From Lachnospiraceae bacterium MA2020 (GTDB taxonomy: Bacteria; Bacillota; Clostridia; Lachnospirales; Lachnospiraceae): a DNA stretch of 64,000 nucleotides. Of this stretch, positions 4,284-9,883 are shown piece by piece (positions within the stretch are counted from its first letter, which is position 1; every line of letters begins with the position of its first letter). The notes beneath the pieces are model-generated. The model did not search any database and was not told the DNA's origin. It saw only the letters and a program-made list of their open reading frames with translations. The position numbers and the translations under genes were made by a program. The stretch is from positions 178,675 through 242,674 of the forward strand of contig KN050797.1 of assembly GCA_000746015.1 (NCBI GenBank), read 5' to 3'.

Positions 4284-4637
4284 ATGGCAAGAATTAAGGG
4301 CGGAATGGCCGCAAAGAAGAAGCACAATAGAGTACTTAAGCTCGCTAAGGGTTATAGAGGAGCAAGATCAAAGCAGTACAGAGTTGCTAAGCAGTCTGTA
4401 ATGCGTGCACTTACTTCATCATTCGCAGGACGTAAGCAGAAGAAGAGAGATTTCAGATCACTCTGGATCACTCGTATCAACGCTGCAGCTCGTGCTAATG
4501 GTCTTACATACAGCACACTTATGCACGGTCTTAAGGTTGCTGGTATCGACATCAACAGAAAGATGCTTGCTGAGATGGCTGTTAACGATGCAGCTGGATT
4601 TGCAACACTTGCTGAGCTTGCAAAAGCTAACGCATAA
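4284..4637 (+). CDS. rplT: 50S ribosomal protein L20
   Basis: The 117-residue product is L20, recognised from [20 protein letters not shown], the [17 protein letters not shown] region and the [17 protein letters not shown] segment. L20 is needed early in 50S assembly and in many Firmicutes represses this operon by binding its leader RNA. An AAGGAGG site precedes the ATG. The gene ends only three bases before the -35 box of the tRNA promoter, so any terminator for this operon must overlap the tRNA leader (see the hairpin at 4671). Confidence 0.98.
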
Positions 4638-4640
4638 GTA

Positions 4641-4669
4641 TTGACAAAAATACAATTTATGCATATAAT
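4641..4669 (+). promoter_or_regulatory. Perfect consensus promoter of tRNA-Leu
   Basis: TTGACA at 4641-4646 and TATAAT at 4664-4669 with a 17-base spacer match the sigma-A consensus exactly. The expected start site is near 4676. Confidence 0.9.
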
Positions 4670-4670
4670 G

Positions 4671-4698
4671 TTATCTGTTGCGGCAACGCAACAGATAA
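4671..4698 (+). other. Perfect 12-bp hairpin with GCAA tetraloop at the tRNA start site
   Basis: Left arm TTATCTGTTGCG (4671-4682), loop GCAA (4683-4686) and right arm CGCAACAGATAA (4687-4698) pair without mismatch. It follows rplT by 33 bases and could be the operon's terminator, although only TTTAAT follows, or a leader structure removed from the pre-tRNA. It begins one base after the -10 box of the tRNA promoter. Confidence 0.75.
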
Positions 4699-4704
4699 TT
4701 TAAT

Positions 4705-4788
4705 GCAGGAGTGGCGGAATTGGCAGACGCGCAGGCTTCAGGTGCCTGTGGTAGCAATATCGTGTGGGTTCAAGTCCCATCTCCTGCA
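4705..4788 (+). tRNA. tRNA-Leu (CAG anticodon)
   Basis: The 84-base gene folds as a class II tRNA: acceptor arms GCAGGAG (4705-4711) and CTCCTGC (4781-4787), discriminator A at 4788, anticodon stem CAGGC/GCCTG with loop TTCAGGT (4737-4743), giving anticodon CAG for CUG codons, a long variable arm and a GGTTCAAGTCC T-arm region. The 3' CCA is not encoded, so it must be added by the CCA enzyme. Confidence 0.95.
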
Positions 4789-4791
4789 CGC

Positions 4792-4836
4792 TAAAATAAA
4801 AGATACACTAGCATTGCTAGTGTATCTTTTATTTTA
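4792..4836 (+). terminator. Terminator after tRNA-Leu
   Basis: A near-perfect palindrome of two 22-base arms (4792-4813 and 4815-4836) flanks a single central base. The right arm ends in TCTTTTATTTTA, which would serve as a terminator. Its symmetry makes it usable from both strands. Confidence 0.85.
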
Positions 4837-4839
4837 GGA

Positions 4840-5021
4840 GCAGAGCTCCGGTCGGCGCTGCTAGAAGTACAGAAATCTTTGATTTCGTTGTACTTCTGTA
4901 CACAGAGTGAAGACCGGTGTCCACTGGACACCGTGCGCCCCATCTCCTGCATTATTGGCAATGCGCTCCGGTCGGCTCAGGGCCGATGTCCACTGGATAT
5001 CGTGCGCCCTATTTCATGCAT
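4840..5021 (+). repeat. Degenerate tandem repeat carrying copies of the tRNA-Leu 3' end
   Basis: Two copies of GCTCCGGTCGGC (4845-4856 and 4965-4976) are each followed by a dyad around TGTCCACTGGA (4918-4928 and 4987-4997), then GTGCGCCC and a stretch ending in TGCAT (4933-4952 and 5002-5021). In the first copy CCCATCTCCTGCA (4939-4951) is identical to the tRNA-Leu 3' end at 4776-4788; the second is a decayed version. The first copy also holds about 50 extra bases with a hairpin whose arms are AGAAGTACA and TGTACTTCT (about 4863-4896). No protein is expected here. The rest of the gene-free stretch up to 5123 holds only a small hairpin (5027-5048) and a candidate promoter. Confidence 0.75.
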
Positions 5022-5046
5022 AAAAAAATACATTGGCAGAAATGTA

Positions 5047-5075
5047 TTGAAAAATGAATTGATATGTGTTAGAGT
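5047..5075 (+). promoter_or_regulatory. Candidate promoter for the 5124 gene
   Basis: TTGAAA (5047-5052), a 17-base spacer and TAGAGT (5070-5075) lie about 50 bases before the gene start. Confidence 0.45.
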
Positions 5076-5123
5076 AATTTCTTGTGAGATGAAAACAAAC
5101 AGGTGTTTTGTAAATAGGAGTAT

Positions 5124-5534
5124 ATGATGTTAAAAGTTCCAAAGTTAAGCGGAAATTTTGTTTGTGGACCATGTAATGATGGGTCAGCGAGATATATTGT
5201 TGAGGAGCGTAGGATTTCTTACCTGCTTCCTCGTAAGGAAAATACTGTTACTATTAATGGTCTGTTTGCACACTGTGAGAAGTGCGGCAAGTATGCGCGT
5301 ATAGCTGATATAGAAGAGTATAATGCAGCTCTTGCAGCAGAAGCTTATGAGAATCCTGCATTAAATCTTAGTATTGAAGCAGAAGCTGAGCAGAATGATG
5401 ATGTAGCGGTTGCTGAAGCAGTTAATGCTCCGGAAGCAGATATTGAGATTGGAGATATCAGTCTTACGACAACATCTGATACATTTGTTGAGGACGCTGA
5501 CGGACAGCTTGAGCTTAGCAGTTTCATAATCTAA
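5124..5534 (+). CDS. Small cysteine-motif protein of unknown function
   Basis: I do not recognise this 136-residue protein. It has CGPC near residues 14-17 and CEKC near 51-54, two CxxC pairs that probably bind zinc, in an N-terminal half of about 65 residues. The C-terminal half is very acidic and alanine-rich (EAEAEQNDDVAVAEAV and similar) and probably disordered. There is no signal peptide. A TAGGAG site lies 5 to 10 bases upstream; ATG at 5127 is an equally good start. A terminator follows directly, so it is a single-gene unit. Confidence 0.7.
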   Translation: MMLKVPKLSGNFVCGPCNDGSARYIVEERRISYLLPRKENTVTINGLFAHCEKCGKYARIADIEEYNAALAAEAYENPALNLSIEAEAEQNDDVAVAEAVNAPEADIEIGDISLTTTSDTFVEDADGQLELSSFII

Positions 5535-7642: not shown

Positions 7643-9883
7643 ATGAGAAAGAGGAAACTTTATATTTGTCTGATATTAATGATCGCGCTGATTGTGTCAA
7701 ATATGTCTTTTACTGTGGCAGAAGAATTTACTGATACTGCTGATGTGCAGCATAGGTATGTCACGTCTGAGAATGCTAAAAGAGGCTTAAAAGTACGTGA
7801 CAGGGGCTATGAAGCAGGACATCATAGAGAGTCCGGTATAAGACTTAAGAGTGCGCTCCCGTCAAAATACATGAATCTGGAAGCATTACCGGAGCTCAGG
7901 GCGCAGTCCCATGGAATGTGTTGGGCATATTCTGCGGTTTTTGCAGCAGAGGCGGATCTTATAAAGAAAGGGCTGCTGACAGCAGAGAATGCTGATCTTT
8001 CTGAAGTGCATACGGCATATTTTACAAATCATTTTAATCTTGGCGTTGCTGATCCTCTTGGGGGAACGGCAGGGGACAGCGTAGAGTCTAAGGGAGATTA
8101 TCTGAATGCCGGAGGATTCTATACTAATGCTTTTCAGATATTTGCTTCATGGACCGGTGTTGCCAATGAAAAAGACATGATGTCAGATGGGGACGCTGGT
8201 TTTAATAGTGATACAGAGTTTGATAGTGGGCTGCAGTATGGTCTGAGCCGGTACCATCTTCAGGGAATGTATGAGATTGCCGTAGATGACATAGAGGACG
8301 TCAAGCAGGCAATACTTGATCATGGTGCGGTTGCACTTGCATATTGTAGTTATGTCAAATACTATAATGCGGACAATAATTCTTTTTATTGCAATGATGA
8401 CTCTGAGTTTCCTGATCATGGTGTGGCTATCGTGGGTTGGGATGATAGCTTTTCAAAGGATAAGTTTAATTCTGCTCCTGAAGGAAATGGCGCCTGGCTG
8501 GTAAGAAACAGTTGGGTAAAAGGTGGCAGGGAGGAGAGTTACAACGGCTATTTCTGGCTTTCATATTACAACAAGGGAGGTTATGACACAGTAACCGCAG
8601 TTGATATGGAGGCTGCAGATAATTATGACAATAATTATCAGTATGATGGTGGAATAAATTATGGGACAACGGGATTCGGTTTTGACGAACAAAGTGTTGC
8701 TGCAAATGTATTTGAAGTAACTGCGAATAGTGATAAACAGGAGTATCTCCGAGCTGTTTCTTTTGAAACATATGGAACATGGGATGCTGATTATAAAATT
8801 GAGATATATAAAGATCTTACGGATCCGTCTGATCCTACAAGTGGTAAACTTGCTGATACAGTAAACGATAGAATAGCATATAATGGCTATTACACAGTAT
8901 CACTTAATAAGCCTGTTTCATTAAAACCATCATCAAAATTTTCAGTAGTACTGACTCTTGAAGGCGAGAATACAGCTATAGCATATGAGACAGAATACAA
9001 ATCACCTATAGGGGATCTTTTTATCACAGCTAATATTGATAGTGGTCAAAGCTTTATCAAGAATGGTAGATGGATTGATGTGAAAGGAATGAATTTTGGA
9101 GGAAACGCCAGGATTAAAGCATTTACTGATAATGAACTAAAAGATGGTGAGACATCTGATGACAGTATATCTGATGATGAAACTCCATCAGAAAATAAGA
9201 CACCTTCAGAAGATAAAACGCCATCGGAAGACAATACACCGTCAGAAGATAATACACCATCGGAAGACAATACACCGTCAGAAGATAATACACCGTCCGA
9301 AGATAAAACTCCATCGGAAGATAGGGCTCCTTCAGAAAATAAAACACCTTCAGAAAACAATACACCGTCAGAAAATAAAAGCACTGAAACAGTATCCAAT
9401 AATAAATACGATGGCAGTGATCTTTCTTACTGTGTAGCTTTCTCAAAGATAGATGTATCGTCTGTCCTTGGAACACCATCCGGAAAATACAGATACAGGT
9501 CATCTGATAAACGTACAGCTAAGGTAAATAAAAGAGGAATAGTGACAGGAAAGAATTCAGGTGAGGTTGTGATATCGCTCGAACAGAAGGAATCAGGAGG
9601 CTGGAAGGCTGTCAGTCAGTGTAGTATCACTATAGAAAAGCCCACAATGGTTAAATCCAAGCAGGTTACAGTTGGGACAAAATTTAATGCTTTTGATGAA
9701 CTGATAAGTGGTACAAAATATAAACCATCCTCATGGATGTCATCGAAGAGTTCTGTTGCAACAGTAGATGATGATGGAAATGTGGTAGCAATTGGAAGCG
9801 GCAAAACAAAGATATATGCAGTGTACACAACATCATCGGGTACAAGTAAGAAAAAATACAAGGCTACAGTTAAGGTAAATTAA
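7643..9883 (+). CDS. Secreted papain-family (C1A) cysteine protease with lectin-like and Ig-like domains
   Basis: This 746-residue protein has a signal peptide (about residues 1-26). The papain-type catalytic domain shows Cys93 in AQSHGMCWAYSA, His259 in DHGVAIVGWDD and Asn289 in NSWVKGG. A beta-rich region at about 330-490 matches the lectin-like domain that follows the protease in related clostridial proteins. Next comes a linker of 11 hexapeptide repeats of the TPSEDN type (bases 9182-9379). The C-terminus holds two Big2/Ig-like segments ending in VTGKNSGEVVIS and VVAIGSGKTKIYAVY. It probably degrades proteins or peptides outside the cell. No cell-wall sorting signal is seen. A terminator follows. 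Confidence 0.92.
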   Translation: MRKRKLYICLILMIALIVSNMSFTVAEEFTDTADVQHRYVTSENAKRGLKVRDRGYEAGHHRESGIRLKSALPSKYMNLEALPELRAQSHGMCWAYSAVFAAEADLIKKGLLTAENADLSEVHTAYFTNHFNLGVADPLGGTAGDSVESKGDYLNAGGFYTNAFQIFASWTGVANEKDMMSDGDAGFNSDTEFDSGLQYGLSRYHLQGMYEIAVDDIEDVKQAILDHGAVALAYCSYVKYYNADNNSFYCNDDSEFPDHGVAIVGWDDSFSKDKFNSAPEGNGAWLVRNSWVKGGREESYNGYFWLSYYNKGGYDTVTAVDMEAADNYDNNYQYDGGINYGTTGFGFDEQSVAANVFEVTANSDKQEYLRAVSFETYGTWDADYKIEIYKDLTDPSDPTSGKLADTVNDRIAYNGYYTVSLNKPVSLKPSSKFSVVLTLEGENTAIAYETEYKSPIGDLFITANIDSGQSFIKNGRWIDVKGMNFGGNARIKAFTDNELKDGETSDDSISDDETPSENKTPSEDKTPSEDNTPSEDNTPSEDNTPSEDNTPSEDKTPSEDRAPSENKTPSENNTPSENKSTETVSNNKYDGSDLSYCVAFSKIDVSSVLGTPSGKYRYRSSDKRTAKVNKRGIVTGKNSGEVVISLEQKESGGWKAVSQCSITIEKPTMVKSKQVTVGTKFNAFDELISGTKYKPSSWMSSKSSVATVDDDGNVVAIGSGKTKIYAVYTTSSGTSKKKYKATVKVN
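9182..9379 (+). repeat. 11 tandem 18-base repeats within the protease gene
   Basis: Eleven in-frame 18-base units encode T-P-S-E-(D/N)-(N/K/R) with few amino-acid changes but many silent ones, making an acidic, flexible linker between the lectin-like and Ig-like domains. One unit begins APSEN. Confidence 0.9.

Follow-up and report, generated by a model that had tools for sequence, protein, structure and literature searches.

Why does the last stretch of a tRNA-Leu gene occur twice? tRNA genes are usually seen as targets of large integrative elements, and the copy discussed here stands directly behind a palindrome. Working in the window, by which we mean the whole stretch of 64,000 nucleotides of Lachnospiraceae bacterium MA2020 that was analysed, we asked what this palindrome is and how a tRNA end comes to lie beside it.

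The tRNA-Leu(CAG) locus carries two palindromic units

The features of the locus, all on the plus strand, are as follows, with the basis of each call in brackets.

4705..4789, plus strand: tRNA-Leu(CAG) gene, from which the end is copied (ARAGORN; Rfam RF00005)
4776..4788, plus strand: tRNA 3′ end CCCATCTCCTGCA, made up of the T-stem 3′ strand, the acceptor 3′ strand and the discriminator (sequence)
4791..4837, plus strand: 22-bp perfect palindrome directly 3′ of the tRNA, a terminator-like hairpin (fold)
4840..4845, plus strand: GCAGAG, 5′ strand of an outer stem pairing with the copied tRNA end (predicted fold)
4845..4939, plus strand: unit 1, core1 GCTCCGGTCGGCGC...AGACCGGTGTCCACTGGACACCGTGCGCC (sequence, alignment)
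4863..4898, plus strand: extra hairpin AGAAGTACAGAAATC / GATTTCGTTGTACTTCT nested in the core1 bulge (sequence, fold, alignment)
4939..4951, plus strand: exact copy of the tRNA 3′ end right behind core1 (sequence match)
4965..5008, plus strand: unit 2, decayed core1 GCTCCGGTCGGC...GATGTCCACTGGATATCGTGCGCC (sequence)
5008..5020, plus strand: decayed copy of the tRNA 3′ end, CCTATTTCATGCA (3 mismatches)
5028..5047, plus strand: small palindrome ATACAT..ATGTAT past the last copy (sequence only)

The first-pass annotation had noted that the 13-base tRNA end at 4776-4788 recurs exactly at 4939-4951, and these are indeed the only two mismatch-free sites in the window. The first C of the copy doubles as the final base of the palindrome, which we call core1. 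A decayed second unit had also been described, at 4981-5021; the unit is present, but it spans 4965-5020, because GCTCCGGTCGGC, seen at 4845-4856 in unit 1, recurs at 4965-4976 and TGTCCACTGGA, seen at 4918-4928, recurs at 4987-4997. Before each copy stands the palindrome GGTGTCCACTGGACACC or GATGTCCACTGGATATC, with GCTCCGGTCGGC ahead of it and GTGCGCC closing it. The copy at 5008-5020 is one of 25 inexact matches to CCCATCTCCTGCA in the window, and we count it as a tRNA end because it lies directly behind the second core.

The hairpin at 4791-4837, between the tRNA gene and unit 1, has a predicted energy of -28.3 kcal/mol (z -10.0), and the small palindrome at 5028-5047 is, judging from its sequence, possibly the displaced terminator. 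An open frame at 4879-5127 (82 amino acids) was judged a by-product of the repeat. The genes ahead of the tRNA are presumably infC-rpmI-rplT-like; elsewhere in the window, at 7643-9883, a 746-amino-acid open reading frame has a run of TPSEDN-type repeats and, we assume, resembles a papain-like protease.

The copy in the window is old and degenerate, comprises about two units and belongs to a family of palindromic mini-elements. The signs of age are the missing T-arm 5′ half, which better-preserved copies have, the extra hairpin in unit 1 and the decay of unit 2; the T-arm 5′ half being absent here, we infer the T-loop origin of this copy from its relatives. The nested hairpin is absent from the 67 aligned cores described below, a set whose selection would miss such inserts.

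Core1 is a patchily distributed palindrome

Core1 is a palindrome of about 55 bp found mostly in Lachnospiraceae, a family of gut bacteria. The first-pass annotation had proposed looking for the unit beyond the window, and further copies were found in the same genome and in relatives; the unit is neither absent elsewhere nor is its tRNA-end match private to this strain, since relatives hold both. The genome of MA2020 has four core1 cores, two in the window and two on its contig 19, along with a variant core behind two tRNA-Leu(AAG) genes (L178, L173). A degenerate core1 pattern of 38 bases matched 38 stretches in the genome_contigs collection, most of them from Lachnospiraceae or from genera placed there, including Mobilisporobacter, Herbinix and Oribacterium as well as further genera that we take to belong to the family. 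The exceptions are one stretch titled Eubacteriales only and one from Clostridium vitabionis, which NCBI taxonomy places in Clostridiaceae. Viral_contigs gave 0 matches to the exact pattern, and on that exact-pattern search we rejected a viral origin. Presence is patchy even among relatives: a looser pattern was found in 14 of 48 genomes of the same genus and the strict pattern in 25 of 298 family genomes, and with these patterns no genome showed more than 9 copies.

For alignment, 121 palindrome candidates from both strands were filtered to 74, of which 69 were distinct; removal of 2 antisense rows by hand left 67 aligned cores, and the 2 window units bring the set counted below to 69. These cores were fetched by core patterns or around tRNAs and are not a random sample, units of an array are counted separately, and many of the loci lie on the short contigs of metagenome-assembled genomes. 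Three loci discussed later (L036, L259 and L283) lie outside this set. The consensus hairpin of the 67 cores is GGCGCA-AARC-CGANGTCC-ACT-GGACNTCG-TGCGCC, plus a small 5′ hairpin.

In the 67-core alignment 96.7% of cells are paired; 35 cells are unpaired, and the outermost pair accounts for 28 of them. Nine of 16 pairs are altered on both sides (73 doubly changed cells), a covariation score matched by 0 of 500 shuffles, while the count of further pair types was matched by 17 of 500. Such covariation would be expected if the cores were RNA elements serving tRNA biology, for instance as riboregulators or as decoys for the tRNA 3′ end, with the stems under RNA selection; unit 1 and the contig-19 copies also fold better than all of their shuffles, although unit 2 is matched by 18 of 200. 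Variation in core1 stems is, however, almost only Watson–Crick, with 1 G-U cell in 1,055, and because G-U pairs are almost absent we favour correction at the DNA level over RNA selection. The patchy presence (25 of 298 genomes by the strict pattern) also argues against an RNA role. At the Rfam 15 gathering score, window positions 4600-5200 and six further loci (L040, L041, L063, L066, L087 and L089) gave tRNA only, which speaks in the same direction and led us to reject core1 as a known Rfam RNA; weaker hits, such as one to BSnc120 in L089 with 33.6 bits against a cut-off of 114, fell short of that score. We therefore regard an RNA element as very improbable and read the core1 stems, from their pattern of substitution, as probably kept up at the DNA level. 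Template switching in replication is reported, in passages of one paper (PMC8794818), to create and repair such stems.

The copied end belongs to the neighbouring tRNA

A same-strand tRNA lies within 420 bp upstream of 28 of the 69 core1 copies. Behind 25 of these 28 cores, the next 20 nt hold 10-15 consecutive nucleotides of that tRNA's own end; the exceptions are L012 (one mismatch in 13), the decayed unit 2 of the window, and L053, where the end is that of a tRNA-Arg(ACG) gene read by eye and uncalled by ARAGORN. With ends of other isoacceptors, at least 10 nt matched in 9 of 496 comparisons, in which some isoacceptors, such as Leu(AAG) and Leu(CAG), have common ends. At tRNA-Gly(GCC) loci the copy tracks the local variant, GTCTCGCGCT, GTCTATCGCT, GTCTGTCGCT or GTCTCGTGCT, which makes the copied end a local one and not one brought from elsewhere.

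Surveys that began from tRNAs gave a similar picture. In MA2020 and the genome of a relative (G023) combined, 4 of 92 tRNAs, the window locus among them, have an exact copy of their own end of at least 10 nt within 400 nt downstream, and the largest match in 460 swapped-tRNA controls is 9 nt; inverted own-end copies of at least 10 nt occur at 5 of 92 tRNAs against 2 of 460 controls. We rejected a chance repeat because own-end copies exceed these swapped-tRNA controls. Elements are borne by 6 of 30 tRNA-Gly(GCC) genes (L206, L213, L215, L217, L220 and L226; 28 loci, the best query matches among 294 of the 298 genomes), with copies of 9-17 nt and one mismatch in L206. Within the genus, 5 of 29 tRNA-Leu(CAG) genes (27 loci) bear one, namely L065, which is the window locus, L066, L067, L087 and L089; exact 12-nt matches at L080 and L090 proved to be coding sequence, not elements.

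The first-pass annotation had offered as one explanation a proliferating repeat that captured a tRNA end. That explanation comes nearer to what we find than the footprint of an integrative element, but the loci speak against a single capture of an end that then travelled with the repeat: behind 25 of 28 tRNA-linked cores the end is the local tRNA's own.

Cores sit in T-loops and interrupt tRNA genes

Better-preserved copies follow one order: intact tRNA, terminator hairpin, then a hairpin with the T-arm 5′ half (GGTTCR), the core, the T-arm 3′ half and the acceptor end. A pattern joining GGTTCR to the start of core1 matched at 39 sites, which lie in 27 of the 397 family genomes scanned and represent 26 of 334 genera; its reversed control found 0. 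Of 32 such sites in 30 fetched loci, 26 have a called upstream tRNA and 16 of these 26 an own-end copy of at least 10 nt, in a set that is T-loop-biased by design and overlaps the earlier one (for example L267 = L039, L277 = L063, L265 = L036). In the aligned set, TTCR or a variant lies within about 30 nt to the left of the core in 24 of 26 tRNA-linked rows, a count that is weak taken alone because 17 of 41 unlinked rows have it too.

Three complete tRNA genes are interrupted by a core in the T-loop. In-silico removal of core1 from L036 (also L265) yielded a tRNA-Thr(CGT) with 29 of 370 cut pairs in ARAGORN, and removal of an unrelated core, core2, from L259 yielded a tRNA-Glu(CTC) with 18 of 370; these were the only whole genes recovered among 91 cores tested, a third call (L257) being that locus's intact tRNA and left out of the count. 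A second scan with another expression returned L036 only, and L283, then checked with set cuts, gave a tRNA-Glu(CTC) on removal of core1 with 50 of 120 cut pairs; L287, called from a single cut pair, was left out. At L259 the cut GGGTTC^AAGTCCC is exact and restores a normal T-loop, and the junction shows no target-site duplication of the sort that marks a classical MITE. L036 needs three filler bases at the tightest cut, and in L283 the T-stem 3′ strand no longer fully matches. None of the three genes has a replacement tRNA end. All three tRNAs have CNN anticodons, and a tRNA-Glu(TTC) adjoins the interrupted tRNA-Glu(CTC) in both Glu cases; UNN isoacceptors can cover CNN-anticodon tRNAs. L024 (G046) probably contains a further case, a decayed tRNA-Arg(CCT) whose T-loop bears core1, but no cut there gave a tRNA call.

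Excision of core2 leaves a perfect T-loop, and the cores, as tiny structured inserts, might be removed from RNA, as a new kind of bacterial tRNA intron spreading between tRNA genes, a reading we consider a distant long shot.

Core2 and a third type, core3, are unrelated to core1 and occupy the same T-loop place. In two close relatives, G022 and G023, the tRNA-Leu locus of the window bears a core2-like core instead. The strict core2 pattern, GGACTAGG..CCGTCGCNAGTCC, was found at 7 sites, spread over 3 of 117 genomes. Each site lies in a tRNA or behind one, with the link at L263, a contig end, made by eye. The simplest cases are L257 and L263, in which the tRNA 3′ part is repeated in tandem and the second copy has core2 in its T-loop (break at GTGGGTT(C/T)^AAGTCCC); the L263 duplicate includes flanking DNA. 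Copies start at AAGTCCC within the loop for core2, and at the loop's 3′ edge, with the T-stem 3′ strand, for core1. Core3 (..TATGAGCACT..GTGCGATGCATA..) lies in the T-loops of tRNA-Gly tail copies at L215, L217 and L242. One tRNA-Leu(AAG), at L260 (G024), has core1 plus core2 behind it. The T-loop of tRNA genes is a frequent home of cores in Lachnospiraceae, though not the sole one.

Cores away from tRNAs and the search for an enzyme

No same-strand tRNA lies within 420 bp upstream of 41 of the 69 cores, 5 of which have an opposite-strand tRNA. Core1 therefore also has homes outside tRNA genes, as would be expected of a mobile palindrome. Read by eye, some unlinked cores lie within other hairpin repeats (L101, L103, L117, L127); in Butyrivibrio sp. 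XPD2002 (L101, L117, L127), core1 is nested at four sites in the hairpin repeat CCCTCATCCGTCAGC..GAGGGAGAAGGC or a variant of it. Others fall within open frames or at their 3′ ends (for instance L005, L057, L109, L114), some of which they extend or interrupt, and at L057 GARCPVDIGSAPTEMKWR falls within a frame of 300 codons. On contig 19 of MA2020, two core1 copies (L001:3359-3478 and 9030-9128), each behind the same CAAGCAATRTATGAATACGTCCGTTTTCATACTCGCTTG hairpin, stand on either side of two genes, one relaxase-like, the other large and helicase-like (open reading frames by eye), in what is likely a mobile region.

Searches for a partner enzyme or an empty site gave negative results within their scope. 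Y1_Tnp was found in 5 of 6 core-bearing genomes but not in G186, with no transposase linked to cores, and five RAYT-like gene loci in four genomes contain no core. The comparison covered one genome per species and found no strain-level empty site. Of 4 genomes from the same genus as G057, 2 matched, the second (L295) showing no tRNA-Glu pair, and no two strains differing by an insertion were found. A tyrosine-recombinase motif was found at 2 of 256 loci, one of them beside a core (L250), by a strict motif and in flanks often of 1.5 kb or less. At L250 (G186), positions about 320-430, the motif adjoins a tRNA-Gly element array on the strand opposite the tRNA.

These data bear on the suggestion, made in the first-pass annotation, that the repeat is the footprint of an integrative element. 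A tyrosine integrase would have acted at the T-loop, bringing a replacement end and leaving the displaced end on the other side, and the unit would be its scar or a minimal form. T-loops are known integrase sites, as described for mycobacteriophage Ms6 (PMC1762012), each end copy has its own terminator-like hairpin at several loci, and the integrase fragment abutting the L250 array is a remaining exception in its favour. Yet the units are about 60-160 bp and gene-free, and the three interrupted genes lack a replacement end. One core stands behind many tRNAs of different sequence, each with its own end, and the recombinase motif is as rare as just described. With no integrase and many different tRNAs, the explanation fails for the family; we rejected it there and hold it to be very unlikely overall.

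Arrays and local duplication

Units often recur in tandem. L063 repeats a 133-bp unit, and two or more units, the last often partial, occur at L041, L035, L126, L250, L066 and L274. Duplicated stretches extend past the tRNA into flanking DNA at L126 and L263. Terminators have a median of 18.5 bp at 32 element-bearing tRNAs against 14 bp at 95 others, and G-U pairs make up 18 of 583 against 154 of 1,413 of their pairs, in a comparison to which 18 loci were added for bearing elements and in which L217 and L242 show no terminator. An antisense copy of the tRNA's own end of at least 8 nt was seen at 14 of 33 loci; swapped comparisons reached that length in 97 of 696 cases, so the tendency is weak and not general. 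L166 and L199 have an antisense tRNA end and no core, which we read as core loss.

Arrays of two or three units, and repeats that run beyond the tRNA into the flank (L126, L263), are what local tandem duplication without mobility would give: slippage between the T-arm and a downstream hairpin would duplicate the segment of tRNA 3′ end, terminator and hairpin, and the unit would persist because it works as RNA, for example in termination or as the source of a processed small RNA. Escherichia coli offers a parallel in tyrV, whose last 19 nt recur in three exact copies at 178-bp spacing with the same T-loop start, after GGTTCG. This account has to contend with the 41 of 69 core1 copies away from same-strand tRNAs, with three unrelated cores at one position and with whole tRNA genes interrupted without a tail copy, and we consider it unlikely.

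A proposed explanation

To be explained are the T-loop position, the local-tRNA identity of the copied ends, three interrupted genes, the arrays and near-strict Watson–Crick covariation. The account we favour, and think reasonably probable, is that tRNA T-loops are invaded by hairpin mini-elements, which survive where the host can do without the tRNA in question or has a second copy of its 3′ end. A core (core1, core2 or core3), moving as a discrete unit, would insert into a T-loop. Insertion into a needed tRNA would be lethal, and survivors would therefore be those in which the interrupted tRNA can be spared or its 3′ part, the T-arm plus acceptor end and sometimes the terminator, has been duplicated in tandem. 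The second route would leave the tRNA intact, with the T-arm 5′ half, the core, the T-arm 3′ half and the acceptor end lined up behind it, and further tandem duplication would produce arrays of two or three units. Insertion would come first and rescue by duplication after. Hairpin-templated strand switching in DNA replication may keep the palindromes perfect, and may also have made the antisense tRNA-end copies at some loci.

We infer that L036, L259 and L283 are primary insertions and that tail duplications are the form that survives in needed tRNAs. As for the enzyme, our guess is a single-strand (HUH) transposase acting in trans, on account of the hairpins, the lack of target duplication where this can be judged and the T-loop targeting. 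Very small hairpins, which look like selfish elements, appear to use the universally conserved T-loop, and survival of the host seems tied to a spare tRNA tail. If this is true, a duplicated tRNA 3′ end, usually taken for an integrase scar, can stem from a different process. The interrupted genes for tRNA-Glu(CTC) and tRNA-Thr(CGT) would then be natural experiments in tRNA loss or, if spliced, in bacterial tRNA introns.

Comparison with known systems

Among the papers listed by searches of the open-licence literature, no title or abstract opening describes repeats of this kind. Elements with a T-loop attB, such as phage Ms6, resemble the cores in the T-loop breakpoint and the duplicated tRNA 3′ end; unlike them, the cores as a rule have no integrase, no cargo and no single tRNA target. 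Rickettsia palindromic elements (RPEs), likened here by description and partly from general background, are also palindromic DNA tolerated in genes. Some RPE details come from passages of PMC3733652.

The likeness to REP sequences and their RAYT transposases lies in short, scattered palindromic hairpins, some in open frames. REPs are defined, in passages of the same source (PMC3733652), by a GTAG or CGTC tag at one hairpin end, whereas in core1 GTAG lies near an end in 17 of 67 cores and CGTC in 2 of 67, so the tag is not conserved. Cores differ further in their low number (9 or fewer per genome), their absence from the five RAYT-like loci and their residence in tRNA T-loops. Without a conserved tag in core1 or RAYT adjacency at these loci, we rejected a RAYT-linked REP.

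The nearest precedent is the tyrT/tyrV repeats of E. coli K-12 (rttR RNA, tpr), tandem units led by the exact 3′ end of the host tRNA. The tyrV copies start in the T-loop, between GGTTCG and AATCC, the same layout and breakpoint as the cores, though what fills the unit is different and the T-arm 5′ half is not repeated ahead of the copies. The E. coli repeats also differ in involving one tRNA and in their 178-bp unit, for which a small RNA and a protamine-like open reading frame are annotated. Core units show two traits of the tyrT/rttR repeats, being tandem units led by their own tRNA's 3′ end and having a copy that starts in the T-loop, and the proposed explanation, if true, suggests how the E. 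coli tyrT repeats could have arisen.
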